From positions 62,001 through 126,000 of the IMG/VR virus record IMGVR_UViG_3300032236_000747: a DNA stretch of 64,000 bases; one strand, 5' to 3'. The notes under the pieces were generated by a model. It had not been told where the DNA came from. It worked only from the letters and a program-made list of their open reading frames with translations, and ran no database searches. Shown here one piece after another: positions 5,560-17,102 of this stretch (the first letter of the stretch is position 1; each line of letters opens with the position of its first letter). The position numbers and the translations under genes are program-made. Source of the stretch: a virus.

Positions 5560-5952
5560 ATGAATTTATTTGAATTTTTTAGCGTACCTTCTGTCGAAAA
5601 GCATGAGCAAGAAAATCCCACTAAACAGGACGATGATCAGCAACGTCAAAAACTTGCCAACGATCTTTATTGGTATATTTTAGACCACGATCATTTCCAC
5701 AAAAAACATGTTATGCCTATCGCACAAGGAATGGATAGGGAATATCAAAAGACAAAGAAGCTAGACAGATCAAAATATTCAGAATGTTGGATGCCATTGG
5801 TTCGCGAGGCCTGTTTAGAGTTTCACGAAAAGCATAAGATGCCAGGCAATCCTAAAAAAGTTTTTGATGAAGAGATATGTAAACATCTATGCAAGCGTTT
5901 AGCTGATAGATACATAGAGGATATCAAAAAAGGCGAATACAAGTTAGGATAA
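5560..5952 (+). CDS. Hypothetical protein with hydrophobic targeting-like N-terminus
   Basis: The 130-residue product begins MNLFEFFSVPSVEK, then a Gln/Asp-rich linker, then a compact helical domain with many His, Trp and Lys residues. It ends in KKGEYKLG. The helical part (HDHFHKKHVMPIAQ; CWMPLVREACLEF; CKRLADRYIEDIKKGEYKLG) resembles, from memory, a module found in several T4-like phage proteins of unknown role. The short hydrophobic N-terminus followed by a flexible linker is reminiscent of capsid-targeting peptides of T4 internal proteins. The gene is 4 bases after its upstream neighbour and 4 bases before a nucleotidyltransferase-like gene. Function unknown. Confidence 0.72.
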   Translation: MNLFEFFSVPSVEKHEQENPTKQDDDQQRQKLANDLYWYILDHDHFHKKHVMPIAQGMDREYQKTKKLDRSKYSECWMPLVREACLEFHEKHKMPGNPKKVFDEEICKHLCKRLADRYIEDIKKGEYKLG

Positions 5953-5956
5953 CGGA

Positions 5957-6946
5957 ATGTTACTGACTGAGCTATTCAATGTATTAACCAAACCAATCAA
6001 CGAAGGTGGTAACGTGTTTGATGGTAAAACAACTGATATTAAACTTGAGAATATCAAACCTACTATAAATGCTTTCTTTGCAGAAATGCAACAAGTGTTC
6101 CCTAACAAGGCAGAGATATTTCAAGAAAGCGATCAATATTTTAGTCCCCTAGGGTCTACATACAAAAAGAAATCATCGGGTGACATTGATCTAGGAATAG
6201 ATAGTCCTATGATTTTAGACAGGACTATGAGCGATGAAAGTATTGCTCAATGGGGTATTGACCCTAAGGCAGTAGCAGCTACATTTGAACTGTTGAAGAA
6301 GAGAGCACGCACCGCTACTCCCGAACAGTTACGTATGAAGGCATTCTTACTTAATCTAGTATTGTTTATCAATGCCAATGCGCCTGTAGCCTATTGTGAC
6401 GAAAAGAAAGTTACATACGGACAGATCTTTTTCTGTTATCCCCAGATCGATGAACAAGGTCAAAACTTAGGTATAGGTGTACAAATAGATTGGGACATTG
6501 GAAATCTAGAATGGTTAAAGTTTGCTTATCATTCAACGGGTTACCCAGAGGGTTCTAATGTTAAGGGACTACATCGTACACAGTTAATGTTAAGTGCTTT
6601 CCAAGTGGCAGGTTTGAGCTTTGTACACCTTAGTGGTGTCAAAGATAAACAAACTGGAGAAATGGTCGCTACAAATCCGGAAGAAGCATTACAGGTATTA
6701 AGTGAACGTCTAGGATTCCAAATAACTAGAGCAGACACCGAAGACTATTATAAACTTCACAAGGTGCTACGGGCTAACATGACACCTCAACAATACGATG
6801 TTCTAATAAACATCTATTTCAAAATTTTAGATAGTACTCGTGCAGACATTCCAGACGACCTACAGGACGAATGGCGTGCTAGAAAAGATCAGCTTGGTCT
6901 TACAGGTAAGTTCTTACCTGACAACTCAGCGTTGAAGGTAGTATAA
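5957..6946 (+). CDS. Polymerase-beta-superfamily nucleotidyltransferase-like protein with Alt-like N-terminus
   Basis: The 329-residue protein carries a Pol-beta nucleotidyltransferase signature: LGS at residues 65-67, then DID at 76-78 in SSGDIDLGID (pattern hGS...DhDh), and a later hydrophobic-QID segment (VQIDWD) that may give the third carboxylate. Members of this fold transfer NMP to RNA, protein or small molecules; the substrate here is unknown. The N-terminus MLLTELFNVLTKPINEG resembles, from memory, the start of T4 Alt (MELITELF...). It contains LTE and INE tripeptides that match the (L/I)xE cleavage rule of T4-type prohead protease. That suggests packaging in the head and delivery with DNA. 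It overlaps the next gene by one base (TAATG). Confidence 0.75.
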   Translation: MLLTELFNVLTKPINEGGNVFDGKTTDIKLENIKPTINAFFAEMQQVFPNKAEIFQESDQYFSPLGSTYKKKSSGDIDLGIDSPMILDRTMSDESIAQWGIDPKAVAATFELLKKRARTATPEQLRMKAFLLNLVLFINANAPVAYCDEKKVTYGQIFFCYPQIDEQGQNLGIGVQIDWDIGNLEWLKFAYHSTGYPEGSNVKGLHRTQLMLSAFQVAGLSFVHLSGVKDKQTGEMVATNPEEALQVLSERLGFQITRADTEDYYKLHKVLRANMTPQQYDVLINIYFKILDSTRADIPDDLQDEWRARKDQLGLTGKFLPDNSALKVV

Positions 6947-9885
6947 TGAGCGGAGTAGCAGGTGCTGAACGTGTAAGGAGTCGTAATGACTTTCAACAGT
7001 TTCTTACCTCCTACAAAGACCTAATAAGTCAGTTCCCCGGCTTTGTTAGTTTACAACCTAGTGGAAGTTATAACAGTAATCCAGATAAAATGGATTTTGG
7101 CGATATAGATATTATCGTGCACATCCAAAGTACCAAAGACAAGACCACTGTTAAGAAAGAACTACAAAGTTTCTTTCATCAACAACCCGATACAACAATC
7201 GTTCCGTTTAGCTCAGAAAAGCACGCAGGTAAGCGTAGTTATAATGCGGGAGAACTTATATCAGTTCGTTATCACGACGATACACTAGGTTACAGCGCTC
7301 AAATAGACAACATAGTAGCATTAGACCAACACGAAGTTTCTTTTAAACAACACTTCTTAGATCTACCTGCCGAAAAGCAAGGACTAGTCTTAGGGCTAGT
7401 AAAAATAGCTGCCATAGAAACTGCGCCAGCAGTATTATTTAAAAAGTTAAATATTAATGCTCCCACACAAGTTGAAGCTAATCAAGAGTACGAGTTTAAT
7501 CTCTCAGGAGTTAAGCTAGAGCTAAGAAGAGTAACATACGAACCGGGAACATTTACACAAATCAATAGGCAAGTACTATGGTCTAGTCAAGATTGGAACG
7601 ATGTAGAAAAGTTACTATATCAATACGATCTTAGTCAAGACTTTGAAACATTATTAGCACAGACAAAACAAACTATTAGAAATCCGAGAAGTAACAATAG
7701 ATTACAGGGTGTGTTTAGTAGTATGATTACAGTTAAGAGCGGCGAAGTAGGCACAGAAAAAGGGGCAGGCAAAATGGCGGCGTTAGACAAAATCAAAAAA
7801 ACATTTAGTGAAAGTGACTCTAGATTATTCAATGCGTTAATGGAGGATGCTGATTCTACCTTTGTATTTGCATTTGGTCGCTTTCAACCGCCTACAGTAG
7901 GTCACGAAATACTAATTAGTCAAGTAAAGAAAGCAGCACAGCAGCATAACGCACCCTACGCAATCTTTGTTTCTAAAACTGTGGGAATAACATCTAAACC
8001 TAAACTAAGAAATCCATTAAGTATAGAACAAAAGTTTCCCTATGTACAGGCAGCATTTCCAGGAACAAATTTTGTAGCCTGCAGTGAAGATATGAAAACT
8101 GTCATTGACATTGCTAAACATATTAACCAAAAATACAAAAATATTATAATGGTAGCTGGGGAGGATAGACTAGAAGGTGATAAAGGATTTCATACTATAC
8201 TAAATCAACAAAATGGTATCGACTATAACTTCGATAGCATTGAGTTTATTCCTGTAGGCAGAGATCCGGATGCTGAAAGCGGTACTAAAGTTAGAGAAGC
8301 TGCTGCTAGCGATAACTGGGAGAGATTTAGACAAGGAATTCCTAGCACTATCAACGACAAACAAGCTCACCAGTTAATGGACGAGTTAAAACAAGGTATG
8401 GCTCCTGTGGCAAGAAGAGCACCTCAAAGAAAAGCACAAGAGGGTGGTTACGGAGACAATGGTAGCCCAGAAAGTCGCAGACAAGGTGTGGGTAATGCTA
8501 GTTACGTATCTATGCCAGGAGGCATTGGTATCAAAGAGGCAATGTTACCAAAGAGTGCGTTTGCAGGTAGTGATAAAAATAAACTAGGTCCCGCAGCTCA
8601 TGCTAAAGGCAAACAAAAAGGTCCAGTTAAGCGTGGACAGTTTGTAGGCGGCGGATGTGAAGAAAGTGTGGCGGAAGGCTTGAGAGGTACTGGCAATCCT
8701 GGTATGCCAACTCCATACGACCAAGGTCTTAATGACGCTAAAAAAGACAGAGCATATGATAATCCATATGACCAGCCAGGCGAAGAACAAGAGCATAGCC
8801 AATACAAGAAAGGTTATGAACAAGGTAAGAAGCAAGGTGTGGCGGAAGGCGAAGTGATTCCTTTTCCTAAACGTGAAGTTAAGCCACAAAATAAAAAACC
8901 AGCAGCAAAGAAAGATAACGTAAAAGCTATTAGCAAAGACCGCTATGCCAAAACTGGACCAAATACAATGCAGGGCCCGAATCTTGCTAGTATATACGAA
9001 ACATTTAATAGCAAACAAGAAGTTATTAACTACTTTTTAAGCAAAGGTAAAAGTGCCGGAGCAGGTGCAGCAGCATGGGAACGTGGATGGCGAGGCCCGA
9101 AAAAACAAGCAAAGCCAACTAAGGCTCCACAATCACAACAACGTTACTGGTGGCAGGATAAGGACGATGTAAATGAGTTTGTTACAGGTCCCAATGTTGC
9201 CACAGGCGGCGGCAAGAAAGATTACGGGCAACCAATCAGCGCACGTTACATAGGCGGTAATAAATTTGTAGTCGGTACTACTAACAATTATATACTAACT
9301 GCAACCATAGATAAGTATGGACTAGACTGGGATGACGGTTGGTATTTAGATAGCCCAGGATCAGCACACATCAGTGATGCATCTGAAGGTGATATACCAT
9401 TACCTGTATCAACAGAGCAAAGACATAGCATACACGATACAGTAACAGATTACCTTAATGATAACAATATCGAAGATCTACAAAAAGTAGCAAAACATTT
9501 TGGTCACACAGAGGATGGAAAAATGAATGAACAAGGAATGTCAGAAGCAGAAGGTACTCCAGAGGGGCTACCACATTTAACAAAAGAGTTGTTAACACAC
9601 ATTGTACAACAGGTAGGTACAGAAGGTGCACATGCCATTGTTAAGAGTTTAAAGTGGGGTGATGGTGCTGCTAAAGAACTACTACATCTAATTGTGAAAG
9701 ATTTAAAAAACAATATTAGTGTAGCAGAAAGCGTCAAACAACGCCTAGATCCTAAGTGCTGGAAAGGTTATCGCAAAGCCGGAACTAAGATGAAGGGCGG
9801 TAAACGTGTAAATAACTGTGTTCCAGTTAGTGAAGATATTGAACATTTAATGGCTGGATATATTAAAATATTATCAAGCAAATGA
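6946..9885 (+). CDS. Multidomain protein: Pol-beta nucleotidyltransferase, cytidylyltransferase-like domain and repeat-bearing tail
   Basis: This is a 979-residue multidomain protein. The N-terminal part (about 1-200) has a second Pol-beta signature: PSGS at 38-41, GDIDIIV at 52-58, and a later SAQIDNIVA. Around residues 305-470 is a nucleotidylyltransferase (HIGH-superfamily) domain with FGRFQPPTVGHE and SGTKVREAA, similar to NMN/nicotinate adenylyltransferases. The remaining 500 residues are low-complexity and modular. Two VAEG motifs (near 575 and 632), a SEAEG, and basic Gly/Gln/Lys-rich linkers precede a C-terminal Lys-rich module (PKCWKGYRKAGTKMKGGK, near 936-953) that recurs in T4-like phage proteins as I remember them. 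This looks like a virion-associated enzyme cut by prohead protease. The substrate is unknown. Confidence 0.75.
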   Translation: MSGVAGAERVRSRNDFQQFLTSYKDLISQFPGFVSLQPSGSYNSNPDKMDFGDIDIIVHIQSTKDKTTVKKELQSFFHQQPDTTIVPFSSEKHAGKRSYNAGELISVRYHDDTLGYSAQIDNIVALDQHEVSFKQHFLDLPAEKQGLVLGLVKIAAIETAPAVLFKKLNINAPTQVEANQEYEFNLSGVKLELRRVTYEPGTFTQINRQVLWSSQDWNDVEKLLYQYDLSQDFETLLAQTKQTIRNPRSNNRLQGVFSSMITVKSGEVGTEKGAGKMAALDKIKKTFSESDSRLFNALMEDADSTFVFAFGRFQPPTVGHEILISQVKKAAQQHNAPYAIFVSKTVGITSKPKLRNPLSIEQKFPYVQAAFPGTNFVACSEDMKTVIDIAKHINQKYKNIIMVAGEDRLEGDKGFHTILNQQNGIDYNFDSIEFIPVGRDPDAESGTKVREAAASDNWERFRQGIPSTINDKQAHQLMDELKQGMAPVARRAPQRKAQEGGYGDNGSPESRRQGVGNASYVSMPGGIGIKEAMLPKSAFAGSDKNKLGPAAHAKGKQKGPVKRGQFVGGGCEESVAEGLRGTGNPGMPTPYDQGLNDAKKDRAYDNPYDQPGEEQEHSQYKKGYEQGKKQGVAEGEVIPFPKREVKPQNKKPAAKKDNVKAISKDRYAKTGPNTMQGPNLASIYETFNSKQEVINYFLSKGKSAGAGAAAWERGWRGPKKQAKPTKAPQSQQRYWWQDKDDVNEFVTGPNVATGGGKKDYGQPISARYIGGNKFVVGTTNNYILTATIDKYGLDWDDGWYLDSPGSAHISDASEGDIPLPVSTEQRHSIHDTVTDYLNDNNIEDLQKVAKHFGHTEDGKMNEQGMSEAEGTPEGLPHLTKELLTHIVQQVGTEGAHAIVKSLKWGDGAAKELLHLIVKDLKNNISVAESVKQRLDPKCWKGYRKAGTKMKGGKRVNNCVPVSEDIEHLMAGYIKILSSK

Positions 9886-10145
9886 AGCAATATAGAATAA
9901 CAGGACATCAATACAGCGCATCTACAGACCCGGATTGTTTTTTAAGTCCGGATGATCCTATACATAAACTAATGCCATCTAACTGGCTAGGTGAGCTTGG
10001 CGCTGAACAACGACTAGCTGAATACATGAATCCTCCTAAAGCTAGGCCAGAATACCTAAATCCCGATAATCCCAAAACACAAATGGCCAAACAACTTGGC
10101 ATTAAACCCGGATCTCCCGCGTGGATGGAGCTATGGAAGAAGTAA
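9882..10145 (+). CDS. Hypothetical protein, 87 aa
   Basis: The ATG overlaps the stop of the preceding multidomain gene (ATGA, 9882-9885), indicating translational coupling. The product is soluble, rich in Pro, Asp and Asn (NPPKARPEYLNPDNPKTQ) and lacks a signal peptide. It ends PGSPAWMELWKK. I do not recognise a family. The PEYLNPDNP segment and position between packaged-looking proteins suggest a small accessory protein of the same group, but nothing firmer can be said. Confidence 0.7.
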   Translation: MKQYRITGHQYSASTDPDCFLSPDDPIHKLMPSNWLGELGAEQRLAEYMNPPKARPEYLNPDNPKTQMAKQLGIKPGSPAWMELWKK

Positions 10146-10176
10146 GCTAAATATATTATCGTATTTAGGATTACTT

Positions 10177-10617
10177 ATGGAAGACCTGCAGAAAGCAGCC
10201 AAAATCGGATTTGCTAGTGAATTCAGCTTTTATCTAAAAGCACATAACTTTCATTGGAATGTAGAAGGTGTAGATTTCTACGAATATCACAAACTATTTG
10301 AAGGTATATACACAGAAGTTTTAGATAGTATTGACGACTTTGCTGAAAAACTACGTGCCCTAGGTACCTATGTTCCTGCTAGTCACAGTGCGTTTAGCAT
10401 GTTAAGTCAAATAGCCGACGAAAATAATCTTCAGCCTAAAGAGGGCATGGTACAAGAGTTACTACAAGACAACGAAAAACTAATCAAAGTTTTGAAACTT
10501 GTCTACGATCTTGCCGAGCAAAACGGCGAACACGGATTTAGTAACTTCCTTGCAGAACGCATGGACGCACATCGTAAACACGGTTGGTTCCTGCGTGCCA
10601 GCTTAAAGGGACAATAA
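10177..10617 (+). CDS. dps: Dps-like ferritin (DNA-protecting, iron-storing)
   Basis: The 146-residue product matches the Dps core: HWNVEG at residues 26-31, then FYEYHKLFEGIYTEVLDSIDDFAEKLRALG. The ferroxidase ligands align with E. coli Dps in spacing: H26, H38, E42 (usually Asp or Glu), D53 and E57. Dps dodecamers oxidise Fe(II) with peroxide and protect DNA. I chose the ATG at 10177, which follows TTAGGA with good spacing; the longer in-frame extension to 10096 would overlap the neighbour and is not Dps-like. The long DNA-binding lysine tail is absent. It shares one base with the next gene's start. It could protect phage DNA or be packaged with it; both ideas are inference. Confidence 0.88.
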   Translation: MEDLQKAAKIGFASEFSFYLKAHNFHWNVEGVDFYEYHKLFEGIYTEVLDSIDDFAEKLRALGTYVPASHSAFSMLSQIADENNLQPKEGMVQELLQDNEKLIKVLKLVYDLAEQNGEHGFSNFLAERMDAHRKHGWFLRASLKGQ

Positions 10618-11012
10618 TGAGAGCTAAAGAGTTTATTATCAAAGAAGCAAAAGATGCAGCTGGCGCAACTGGACATAATCCCGATCATATCAGCGCATTA
10701 CCCGATGCACACTTTTGGCCAGAGCTAGATAATAGTTCCGGCTACTTAGCCTACAGATTTGGTGTTGCCATGGCTGGTATGCCAGATCAAAAAATGAAAG
10801 TTGCCGGTCCTACAGGTCTTAAAATGGTTACCATAGGGTATACACAAGCCGAACGAGATATCCTTGATGCTACACAAAACTTAATGGGCACTCCTAAAGT
10901 AAGATTGTCTAGCGGTAAAAGTGAAGAAATGCCGGATGTATACACATTAAGTCCAGTCAACGATTGGCAGAAGGCACTTGAACAATCTACCAAAAAGAAG
11001 AAATCTAAATGA
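10617..11012 (+). CDS. Candidate internal head protein with capsid-targeting-like N-terminus (I)
   Basis: I chose the ATG at 10617, which overlaps the dps stop (TAATG). The product is 131 residues and begins MRAKEFIIKEAKDA. This closely parallels the T4 capsid-targeting peptide (MKTYQEFIAEA in internal proteins, from memory): hydrophobic FI followed by IKE, an (L/I)xE prohead-protease site that would cut after residue 9. The remainder is a small alpha/beta domain (SGYLAYRFGVAMAGMP; IGYTQAERDILDATQ) with a Lys-rich end (STKKKKSK). The next gene begins with almost the same peptide and has a related domain, so the two are likely paralogues. Proteins of this kind in T4 are injected with DNA and antagonise host defences. 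The specific function here is unknown. Confidence 0.72.
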   Translation: MRAKEFIIKEAKDAAGATGHNPDHISALPDAHFWPELDNSSGYLAYRFGVAMAGMPDQKMKVAGPTGLKMVTIGYTQAERDILDATQNLMGTPKVRLSSGKSEEMPDVYTLSPVNDWQKALEQSTKKKKSK

Positions 11013-11566
11013 GAGCCAAAGAGTTTATCGTAGAACGCACTGGACATACTCATCCAGATCATGACGCAGTGCACCAAGGATTTAGCAAACAGAGAGATCC
11101 TGGGGGATATTATCCTACCTATCATCAATATAGAACAGGCATAGCAATCGGAATGGCCGACGGTAGTGATAATCCGATAGATGTTGATCACGAAAGCTGG
11201 ATGGGGCCTTATTGGACCTTTCATCCTTATTCTGACAAAGAACATGATATGATTGATCAAGTTCGAAAAACAATACCAACCGACCACTATCAAGTAAGAC
11301 CCAGAACACCTAGTGCCGAACCTAGCGATACAAATAAAATAAGTCCAACTCCAGATTGGAATCCTAATAAAAGAGAAGTAACAAAAGTAAAAGAATCAGC
11401 AACGTCAGGAAGTTCTAATACAGGCGGAATGAGTTATAGTGCTACAAATAGTACTAACGGAAAGAAGCTTAGTCAAGTTGGTTCACTTTTTGGAGGAACC
11501 TACGGAGAGTCAGACGGCGAAGTTCCTAAGAAGAAAAAATCTAAAACAGTGAGAAGACAGTCATGA
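11009..11566 (+). CDS. Candidate internal head protein with capsid-targeting-like N-terminus (II)
   Basis: The ATG overlaps the upstream stop (ATGA). The 185-residue product begins MRAKEFIVERTGHTHPDHD, nearly identical to its neighbour over the first seven residues and again carrying an IVE protease-type site. The domain behind it (YHQYRTGIAIGMADG; WTFHPYSDKEHDMIDQVRKT) parallels the neighbour (YLAYRFGVAMAGMP; TIGYTQAERDILDATQ), so both look like copies of one fold. A Ser/Thr/Gly-rich linker and a KKKKSK end follow. No catalytic motif is seen. The shared leader, small size and basic tail support virion packaging; this remains inference. Confidence 0.7.
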   Translation: MRAKEFIVERTGHTHPDHDAVHQGFSKQRDPGGYYPTYHQYRTGIAIGMADGSDNPIDVDHESWMGPYWTFHPYSDKEHDMIDQVRKTIPTDHYQVRPRTPSAEPSDTNKISPTPDWNPNKREVTKVKESATSGSSNTGGMSYSATNSTNGKKLSQVGSLFGGTYGESDGEVPKKKKSKTVRRQS

Positions 11567-14432: not shown

Positions 14433-17102
14433 ATGAGTTACGTAGATGCAATCTGGGATCGTGACAACGATCTCGTCAAAGTAGTAGAACGTGATCCTAA
14501 AAAGGGTCGCATATATACAGATTTTCCAGCTAGATATGTTTTTTACTATCCAGACCCTAAAGGAAAATATCATTCAATCCACGGCGAAAGCCTGTCAAGA
14601 GTTGTTTGTAAGAACAACAAAGAATTCCAAAAAGAACTAAGAATACACAGCGGTGTTCGTTTATTTGAAAGCGACATCAAACCTGTGTTCCGATGTCTGG
14701 AAGAAAACTATCTAGGTAAAGATGCTCCAAAACTAAATGTAGCATTTTTCGATATTGAAGTGGACTTTGATCCCGAAAGAGGTTACGCAAGTCCAGACGA
14801 TCCATTTATGCCTATTACCGCTATCGCTGTTTACCTACAGTGGATGGAAACTATGGTATGTCTAGCAATGCCCCCAAAGACAATGACTATGGAACAGGCG
14901 CAAGAAGCAGTCAAAGAGTTTCCTAATACATATTTGTTTACCAGTGAAGCAGAAATGTTAGATACCTTTTTAAATCTTCTAGATGATGCCGATGTTATCA
15001 GTGGTTGGAACTCAGAAGGCTTCGACGTTCCGTATACCGTTAACCGTGTTACCAAGGTTCTAAGTAAAGAAGATACTCGTAGGTTCTGTTTGTGGAATCA
15101 AATGCCAAAGAAACGCGAATATGAGAAGTTCGGAAAACAAGCAGAAACATATGACTTTGTTGGACGAGTACACGTTGACAGTCTAGAGCTATATCGAAAG
15201 TACACATACGAAGAACGACACAGTTACAGACTCGATGCTATTGCCGAATACGAGCTAGGCGAACATAAGACACAATACGAAGGCACACTTGATCAGTTAT
15301 ACAACAACGACTTCCGTAAGTTTATTGAATATAACAGACAAGACTGTATGCTATTAGATAAACTAGATAAGAAGTTAAAGTTCATTGACCTTGCTTCAAC
15401 TGTTGCTCACGAAAACACAGTATTAATACAAACTACAATGGGTGCTGTAGCCGTTACAGAACAAGCTATTATTAATGAAGCACATCATAGAGGGTTTATT
15501 GTTCCTTCTAGAAAGAATCGTGATGATTTAACTGACACACAAGCTGCAGGGGCATATGTTGCTTACCCAAAGAAAGGCCTACATGACTGGGTTGGCTCGC
15601 TAGATATCAACTCATTGTATCCAAGTGTTATTCGTGCACTAAACATGGGTCCAGAAACTATCATAGGACAGTTACGTCAAGACTATACCAAGGCTGAGAT
15701 TGATGCTAAGATGGCAAAAGGTTCTTCATTTGCCGCAGCATGGGAAGGTAAGTTCGGTAGTAACGAATATGAGTTTGTTATGTCTAAGGATATTGCCAAT
15801 GATATCATCATCGACTGGGAAGGCGGCCAAACTGACGTACTAAGCGGCGCTCAGATCTACGATGTGATCTTCGAAAGCAACCAACCTTGGATGTTAAGTG
15901 CTAACGGAACTATCTTTACCTATGAAAAAGAAGGCATCATTCCTGGATTACTAAAGCGTTGGTATAGTGAGCGCAAGGAAATGCAGGCCAAACTCAAAGA
16001 AGCAATCAAAGCGGAGAATAAAATTGAAGAAGAATACTGGGACAAAAGACAACTCGTCAAGAAAATTAACCTTAATAGCCTTTATGGTGCTATTCTTAAC
16101 GCTGGGTGCCGCTTCTTCGATAATCGTATCGGACAGTCAACAACCCTCACAGGTAGACGTATTGCTCGCCATATGGCCGCAAAAGTAAATGAAGTAATCA
16201 CAGGAGATTATAATCACATAGGCAAAGCTATTATCTATGGAGATACTGACTCAGCATACTTCACCGCTTACACAAGTCTACGCAAAGAAATCGAAAAGAA
16301 GGAAATCCCTTGGAACAAGGAAAGTGTCATACAGTTATATGATTCTATAGCAGACGAAGTTAACAGCACATTCCCGCAACTAATGTTAAGTGATTTTCAT
16401 TGTCCTAAGAGTCGTGGCGAAGTTATCAAAGCAGGTCGTGAAATTGTAGGCAGTAAGGCATTGTTTATTACTAAGAAACGATATGCTGTACTATTCTATG
16501 ACAAGGAAGGTAAGCGTAAAGACAAAGATGGTAAGCCAGGTGAAATCAAAGCCATGGGACTAGATTTGAAACGCAGTGATACTCCTGAGTTTATGCAGAA
16601 CTTCTTAAGCGAAATCCTAAATAAAGTCTTAACAGGTAGTGAAGAAGCAGAGATCCTAGATATGATCAGCGAATTCCGCACAGAGTTTAAGAATAGGCCA
16701 GGCTGGGAAAAGGGTAGTCCAAAGCGTGCTAATAACATTGCAGAGTATCAATCTAAGGAAGCCAAGCAAGGTAAGGCTAATATGCCCGGACACGTTCGTG
16801 CTAGTATTAACTGGAATACACTCAAGCGTATGAACAATGACAAATACAGTCAACAGATTGTAGACGGTATGAAAGTTATTGTTTGTAAGATGAAAGATAA
16901 TCCACTTGGATATACTAGTATCGCTTATCCAGTAGACGAAATGCGTTTGCCACAATGGTTCAAGGATCTACCGTTTGATCATATGGAAATGGAAGCTACT
17001 ATTATTAACAACAAGGTCGAAAACCTTATCGGTGTACTAGAATGGGATTTATCTTCTACTACACAAAACAATACATTCGGAAGTTTATTCAGTTTTGAAT
17101 AA
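14433..17102 (+). CDS. 43: Family-B DNA polymerase, T4 gp43 type
   Basis: This is the replicative polymerase with proofreading exonuclease. The product is 889 residues, close to T4 gp43 (898). Exonuclease motifs are visible: FFDIEVD (Exo I, D107 and E109), ISGWNSEGFDVPY (Exo II) and YNRQDCMLLD (Exo III). Polymerase motifs follow: LDINSLYPSVIRALN (motif A), KKINLNSLYGAILN (motif B) and YGDTDSAYF (motif C, two catalytic aspartates). The C-terminus ends NTFGSLFSFE, resembling the gp45 clamp-binding tail of T4-type polymerases. The clamp gene follows after 54 bases with its own promoter. Confidence 0.97.
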   Translation: MSYVDAIWDRDNDLVKVVERDPKKGRIYTDFPARYVFYYPDPKGKYHSIHGESLSRVVCKNNKEFQKELRIHSGVRLFESDIKPVFRCLEENYLGKDAPKLNVAFFDIEVDFDPERGYASPDDPFMPITAIAVYLQWMETMVCLAMPPKTMTMEQAQEAVKEFPNTYLFTSEAEMLDTFLNLLDDADVISGWNSEGFDVPYTVNRVTKVLSKEDTRRFCLWNQMPKKREYEKFGKQAETYDFVGRVHVDSLELYRKYTYEERHSYRLDAIAEYELGEHKTQYEGTLDQLYNNDFRKFIEYNRQDCMLLDKLDKKLKFIDLASTVAHENTVLIQTTMGAVAVTEQAIINEAHHRGFIVPSRKNRDDLTDTQAAGAYVAYPKKGLHDWVGSLDINSLYPSVIRALNMGPETIIGQLRQDYTKAEIDAKMAKGSSFAAAWEGKFGSNEYEFVMSKDIANDIIIDWEGGQTDVLSGAQIYDVIFESNQPWMLSANGTIFTYEKEGIIPGLLKRWYSERKEMQAKLKEAIKAENKIEEEYWDKRQLVKKINLNSLYGAILNAGCRFFDNRIGQSTTLTGRRIARHMAAKVNEVITGDYNHIGKAIIYGDTDSAYFTAYTSLRKEIEKKEIPWNKESVIQLYDSIADEVNSTFPQLMLSDFHCPKSRGEVIKAGREIVGSKALFITKKRYAVLFYDKEGKRKDKDGKPGEIKAMGLDLKRSDTPEFMQNFLSEILNKVLTGSEEAEILDMISEFRTEFKNRPGWEKGSPKRANNIAEYQSKEAKQGKANMPGHVRASINWNTLKRMNNDKYSQQIVDGMKVIVCKMKDNPLGYTSIAYPVDEMRLPQWFKDLPFDHMEMEATIINNKVENLIGVLEWDLSSTTQNNTFGSLFSFE

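Follow-up and report, generated by a model that had tools for sequence, protein, structure and literature searches.

Alt and the internal proteins IPI-IPIII of bacteriophage T4 are packaged in the head, processed by the gp21 protease and injected, and serve as the model for enzymes that enter the cell with phage DNA. To our knowledge, few enzyme types travel in this way. Leader peptides direct proteins to the T4 head, and gp21 cleaves after L/I-x-E and also trims the C-terminus of Alt (PMC9026906). Here we analysed a 64,000-nucleotide stretch of viral DNA (the window; bases 62001-126000 of the 354,680-base phage record IMGVR_UViG_3300032236_000747), in which two adjacent open reading frames (ORFs) encode predicted nucleotidyltransferases: NT1 (ORF329), and ORF979, where a second such domain, NT2, is followed by an adenylyl/cytidylyltransferase-like domain of the HIGH type. 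Like Alt and IPI-IPIII, the locus combines a short N-terminal leader following the L/I-x-E rule with a gp21 gene in the same genome and, as in Alt, a possible C-terminal trimming. The leader of T4 Alt is itself similar in type to that of NT1. Unlike Alt, an ADP-ribosyltransferase, NT1 and NT2 are predicted to have the Pol-beta fold and appear as two partners with tags at opposite ends. Their delivery would be of the known T4 type, whereas the enzymes are new and their chemistry differs.

Other described proteins resemble the locus in part. The virion 'cytidyltransferase' of cyanophages (T4-GC190; S-CREM2 gp154) has a homologous HIGH domain and a leader, MKNFSSFLTE; however, the cyanophage proteins inspected had no Pol-beta domain or NT1 partner, whereas here the HIGH domain is fused behind NT2. 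The Pol-beta-fold nucleotidyltransferases of polyvalent proteins are likewise believed to travel with invading DNA (Iyer et al. 2017, PMC5512222), but NT1 and NT2 are large, paired and associated with T4-type leaders. The best structural match of both is to family-X DNA polymerases (Pol beta, lambda and mu; Pol X), with which they share the GS...DxD...D site.

The original prediction, made from the sequence, had pointed to GS...DhD signatures in both genes (D76/D78 and D53/D55), and these residues proved invariant: G66, S67, D76, D78 and D178 across 68 NT1 homologues, and G40, S41, D53, D55 and D121 across 63 NT2 homologues. The third Asp (D178 in NT1, D121 in NT2), which that prediction had not listed, completes the active site. 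In AlphaFold2 models (mean confidence, pLDDT, 90.5 for NT1, with disorder confined to residues 1-17, and 90.3 for residues 1-500 of ORF979) the catalytic Asps lie on or beside predicted strands, as expected, and neither sequence nor fold shows a degenerate metal site in either protein. The top Foldseek matches were DNA polymerases beta and mu for NT1 (E 2e-5, probability 1.00, template-modelling (TM) score 0.33-0.51) and lambda, beta and mu for NT2 (E 6e-6, probability 1.00). Judged by these models, both are Pol-X-like members of the Pol-beta superfamily. When the two family profiles were aligned with each other (hhalign), all three catalytic motifs were brought into register, at E 0.0016 and a probability of only 16%; because the alignment extends across the three motifs, NT1 and NT2 may be distant paralogues.

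No Pfam or PHROG family gave a convincing match to NT1 or NT2, and neither of the two matched RlaP or another curated nucleotidyltransferase family at the Pfam gathering score. The family-X polymerase family PF14792 matched 8 of the 63 NT2 members (best 3e-4) and ORF979 at 0.15, below the cut-off; it did not match NT1, and a search of the phage's own genome with it returned none. No ADP-ribosyltransferase (ART; R-S-E) family was matched by NT1 or ORF979, where the Pol-beta fold was found instead. Sequence searches of the PDB, with single proteins and with profiles, gave no credible relative, and a match to a phycobilisome linker was dismissed as mere local similarity. We also rejected a CBASS CD-NTase (cyclase) identity for NT2, for which there were scattered weak matches, the best being 8.5e-4 in one of 63 members.

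Dozens of IMG/VR phages carry an NT1-NT2 pair. NT2 relatives were found in 237 IMG/VR stretches, of which the best 80 were kept, and NT1 is encoded at 75 loci, its relatives having been recovered from viruses with an alignment as query. In the redundant set, NT1 precedes NT2 at 149 of 155 loci and the two are less than 25 bases apart at about 141. The cultured Flavobacterium phage immuto has an adjacent orthologous pair, gp089/gp088 (43% identity). Since the pair is conserved and syntenic both in IMG/VR contigs and in immuto, it stands well beyond chance. The immuto pair differs from that of the window in its leaderless NT1, another HIGH domain (GGFKPPHLAHF) and HExxH-like segments in its tail; two of these (HEMIHH and HEIEHL, in the gp088 tail; L004 22132-24855) are possibly metalloprotease domains. 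A pattern scan of GTDB genomes, limited in sensitivity by its few patterns, found no cellular NT2 homologue. Immuto is not named in the paper on Baltic Flavobacterium phages, where no virion proteomics was found either; the text of the phAPEC6 paper does not mention the family.

Delivery is the point on which the evidence is strongest, and for head targeting of NT1 it comes from a comparison of 78 distinct N-termini. Of these, 38 start M/GGNVF (a few in slightly varied form), 40 have a diverse extension that ends in Glu, as [ILV/T]-x-E, directly before the same GG, and none is of a third type. The extensions fall into 22 dissimilar groups, with E at -1 in all 22, L/I/V at -3 in 21 and any residue at -2, so that by sequence the end of the leader follows the T4 gp21 rule, L/I-x-E. 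In the window, the Alt-like N-terminus with LTE and INE sites that had been proposed is present (LTE at residues 3-5, INE at 14-16), and INE16/G17 coincides with this family-conserved, gp21-type boundary. Some NT1 leaders resemble T4 head-targeting leaders (MKSFVEFITE, MITFKEFITE, MRIKELLTE), and genes neighbouring NT pairs carry the same type (MRAREFISE, MKFRELLSE, MKYNEFITE). At some loci a whole domain occupies the leader position: a homologue of the 130-residue upstream protein lies ahead of LME/GGNVF of NT1 in L003, and a metalloprotease-like stretch ahead of VSE/GG and VME/GG in L018 and L019. Where NT1 and NT2 are fused, the junction (NMTE/SGVAG or LGE/SGSTG) lies exactly where stand-alone NT2 begins M/SGVAG; MINE/SGVAG is found in L029 and MIDE/SGVAG in L032. 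From these leader and junction patterns, the same mature N-termini would therefore arise either from a start Met or from an xE site. With the rule M/GG or xE/GG, further head cargo could be recognised purely by its sequence, and the pair allows a test of the way in which the prohead protease releases cargo from polyproteins.

A complementary pattern was found at the other end of NT2. In 16 leaderless phages, stand-alone NT2 ends 0-4 residues past the core, while in every leader-bearing phage it has a tail of 11-36 residues; a tail of 10 residues or more is present at each of the 37 leader-bearing loci where NT2 is complete. The leader state switches about five times on the NT1+NT2 tree. Several short NT2 tails follow an E in a leader-motif-like context (VLGE/SLLSFKGFLNEIF, TFGE/EFVTFRNFLDTK), and the large ORF979-type proteins of the window's clade have a conserved end tail in which [ILV]xE lies some 19-27 residues before the C-terminus. 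These sequence patterns are strong evidence, but not independent proof, that NT1 and NT2 are partners that bear tags at opposite ends and are packaged as a pair. As this unnamed pair occurs naturally both with and without a leader, it allows the nature of a head tag to be tested directly.

The original prediction had also pointed to possible cleavage at VAEG-type sites. Such sites are present in ORF979 (VAEG or VAES at residues 575, 632 and 926), and VAE[GAS] is enriched in the variable C-terminal tails, with 15 observed against 1.1 in shuffles (maximum 5). Because of this enrichment and the resemblance to the site in gp23, cleavage in the variable region is plausible but unproven. In L003 (7474-8196) the tail of the ORF979 homologue has differing domain-like cassettes between GVAEG/GVAEA sites, suggesting module swapping there. 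Unrelated phage proteins share a small module, CWKGYxxxGTKxKGxxRVNNCVP, placed at their ends or close to them (L001, L055, L058, L060, L061, L093, L095, L101, L160); an [ILV]xE tail often comes after it, and it matches five PHROGs of unknown function.

The genome encodes a gp21-type protease (E 2e-26), together with gp23 (E 1e-80) and gp22. Among ten long relatives, nine encode a gp21-type protease, whether or not their NT1 has a leader. The start of gp23 contains KYLAE/AATAGATSSGNVAT, where the major capsid protein is presumed to be cut, and a gp23-like context recurs in cargo-like genes (LLE/AATAGATSSGSIAT, VLE/DASAGATSAGAVAS, VEE/SATAGATSSGSIAT). In relatives, the LAE/AATAGATSSGNVAT context is repeated in small cargo-like proteins (L008 9274-10455; L071, L043, L095, L034, L089), as if copied along with the cleavage site.

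The GRFQPPTVGHE domain noted in ORF979 matches Pfam CTP_transf_like (PF01467; 1.3e-6, 29.1 bits against a cut-off of 21) and phrog_3041 (9e-46). It has both motifs of the HIGH superfamily, (H/T)xGH in GRFQPPTVGH and the S/T-rich second motif in SGTKVR, and Foldseek matched it to a NadD-type enzyme (TM 0.58 to the target). At many loci a HIGH domain is fused to NT2 or encoded by the directly following gene, and four sequence types occur: GRFQPPTxGH, GGFKPPHxAH, GRFQPFHRGH and GRMNPPTRGH. The window's type is that of the cyanophage 'cytidyltransferase', present in 540 phage records, whose members have leaders of their own (S-CREM2 gp154 MKNFSSFLTE/ADEK, S-SRM01 MKNFHQFITE/ATS, ACG-2014b MKKFSAFLNE/AER); S-CREM2 gp154 is 29% identical to ORF979 (E 6e-13). 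These 'cytidylyltransferase' homologues have been detected in virions of S-SM1, as a putative 'citidylyltransferase' (T4-GC190), and of S-CREM2, as gp154 with 3 peptides and 11.2% (PMC3037559, PMC10665884). The 'cytidylyltransferase' domain is therefore already on record as a virion protein. Elsewhere in the genome, NadM (adenylyltransferase-Nudix) and NadV, of nicotinamide adenine dinucleotide (NAD) salvage, are encoded at 337149-340590 (L165, L168).

We propose that NT1 and NT2 are co-evolving, active, metal-dependent nucleotidyltransferases with a palm and thumb like those of Pol X, and that a HIGH-type adenylyl/cytidylyltransferase, in this phage fused to NT2, usually goes with them. NT1 and ORF979 would be synthesized late and enter the prohead through the N-terminal leader of NT1 and the C-terminal tail of ORF979; the gp21-type protease would trim NT1 at INE16/G17 and ORF979 at VSE963/ and possibly at the VAE/ sites, and the trimmed proteins would enter the cell alongside phage DNA. 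Inside the cell they would most likely add nucleotides to a nucleic-acid end, healing or protecting tRNA or DNA as infection begins. Taken as a whole, this explanation is moderately favoured. Its computed basis comprises homology, intact active sites, the fold, synteny, the cleavage-like boundary and the protease gene. Packaging of NT1 and ORF979 into the head is quite probable and their injection is likely; that the substrate is a nucleic acid is a tentative suggestion. It may be, with close to an even chance, that the pair represents a widespread undescribed head-delivered system: two paralogous Pol-X-like nucleotidyltransferases with capsid tags at opposite ends, often with a third, HIGH enzyme, released by the protease and acting together, within minutes of the onset of infection, on a nucleic acid or protein of host or phage. 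It would then also be a test case for a new kind of early-infection chemistry. Comparison across relatives strongly supports the idea of delivery; the role of 'takeover tool' given to these enzymes in the original prediction is unproven.

Several observations weigh against this proposal. The likeness to Pol X is moderate (TM 0.33-0.52) and Pol X dominates the PDB; because of this moderate similarity and over-representation, we stop at 'Pol-beta superfamily, Pol-X-like' and make no closer assignment. Unlike Pol X, NT1 and NT2 have no recognisable RRG motif and match no Pfam family at cut-off. An RNA or DNA ligase as constant neighbour of the pair was considered and dropped, none being consistent. 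Immuto-type relatives have no leader although the protease is present, so the enzymes evidently work without packaging too. The E and M states cluster on the tree, with about five changes, and the correlation with the tails therefore comprises few independent contrasts. Finally, the virion detections in cyanophages rest on few peptides, and the S-CREM2 authors caution about carry-over.

For the substrate, we place nucleic-acid ends first, on the Pol-X-like fold, and protein AMPylation second. Head-delivered NT1 and NT2 that AMPylate or nucleotidylate a host protein early in infection would be functional analogues of T4 Alt, and the same leader and tail signatures fit such Alt-like delivery. 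The Pol-beta nucleotidyltransferases of mobile-element polyvalent proteins have been proposed to be protein modifiers (PMC5512222), and a distant NT1 homologue in Atu_ph07, gp065 (E 1e-10), lies beside gp060-063 (L172), four tandem ORFs resembling Alt-type ADP-ribosyltransferases with LTE-type leaders, in a gene block with 29 products detected in virions by mass spectrometry (PMC6102473). However, gp060-063 are read as ARTs purely by their motifs, with no Pfam ART match in the two scanned, and the top fold matches listed for NT1 and NT2 are polymerases and not minimal protein-modifying nucleotidyltransferases; we consider protein modification unlikely. In favour of nucleic-acid ends, gp065 also adjoins a gene with a weak match to an RNA-ligase family (PF09414, 0.002, short of the cut-off).

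That the pair are ordinary cytoplasmic replication or repair nucleotidyltransferases, their leaders being irrelevant N-terminal extensions, would agree with the leaderless immuto-type proteins, which adjoin primase and exonuclease genes, and with the DNA polymerase gene near the pair in the window. It is improbable, however, as each of the 40 distinct extensions has its final E at precisely the same position, NT2 tails co-occur with NT1 leaders and neighbouring genes share the leader type. We regard as decidedly improbable that the three enzymes synthesize or edit a nucleotide cofactor such as NAD, for instance to counter NADase defences of the host, the HIGH domain acting as nicotinamide mononucleotide (NMN) adenylyltransferase. 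A HIGH domain of one of the four subfamilies is indeed found in or just after NT2 at many loci, and that of ORF979 matches NadD-type structures and, weakly, the NadM and NadR families; but by a strict pattern (which missed VRFQPPT forms, as in L002, L003 and L024) a HIGH domain is absent from the surroundings of some two dozen NT loci, and known NAD salvage has no place for the two Pol-beta enzymes. An essential role in that pathway is down-weighted because separate NadM and NadV genes lie at 337-340 kb. Of the substrates first suggested, NAD has thus become less likely, while RNA, DNA and protein remain candidates.

Features of the locus (window coordinates), with the evidence or remark for each
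Feature	Position	Strand	Evidence or remark
Cargo-like gene upstream of NT1, 130 residues, MNLFEFFSVPSVE... leader	5560..5952	+	homologue fused in locus L003
NT1 (ORF329), predicted Pol-beta-superfamily nucleotidyltransferase, 329 residues	5957..6946	+	AlphaFold2, Foldseek, invariant triad
N-terminal leader of NT1, MLLTELFNVLTKPINE, a capsid-targeting-like propeptide with cleavage predicted after E16 (INE/GG)	5957..6004	+	leader comparison, AlphaFold2 disorder
NT1 catalytic motif GS(66-67)...D76-I-D78	6152..6190	+	conservation
NT1 third catalytic Asp, D178 (VQID)	6488..6490	+	conservation and AlphaFold2
ORF979, 979 residues: NT2, HIGH (NMN adenylyltransferase/cytidylyltransferase-like) domain and variable C-terminal region	6946..9885	+	
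NT2 domain, residues 1-290; invariant GS40-41, D53/D55, D121	6946..7815	+	conservation, AlphaFold2, Foldseek
HIGH nucleotidyltransferase domain, residues 303-490; GRFQPPTVGH 311-320, SGTKVR 445-450	7852..8415	+	cyanophage 'cytidyltransferase' family
ORF979 hypervariable C-terminal region; VAEG (8668, 8839), VAES (9721), CWKGY...NCVP module (9757-9819)	8416..9882	+	
ORF979 conserved C-terminal tail VSE/DIEHLMAGYIKILSSK, predicted C-terminal propeptide	9826..9882	+	[ILV]xE at -19
Cargo-like neighbour, MRAKEFIIKE... leader	10584..11012	+	
Cargo-like neighbour, MRAKEFIVE... leader	11009..11566	+	
Variable cargo-like protein, 713 residues	11563..13704	+	related repeat domain in immuto gp079
DNA polymerase gene	14433-17102		

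NT1 and ORF979 are genuine, overlapping ORFs, both with ATG starts, in a run of plus-strand genes. The description of this cassette as virion-like is supported, in that several of its genes have short head-cargo-like leaders (MNLFEFFSV, MRAKEFIIKE, MRAKEFIVE), the cargo-like sister genes starting MRAKEFI-xE or MNLFEFF. A Dps/ferritin-like gene lies within the cassette (10096-10617), with relatives at 13 NT loci. At about two dozen loci, HAD-type phosphatase genes are found near the NT pair (L004, L078, L127-L158, L116, L032, L052, L118, L119), many of them with a leader-like start of their own (MGNLADLLLE/, MKSFKQFISE/).

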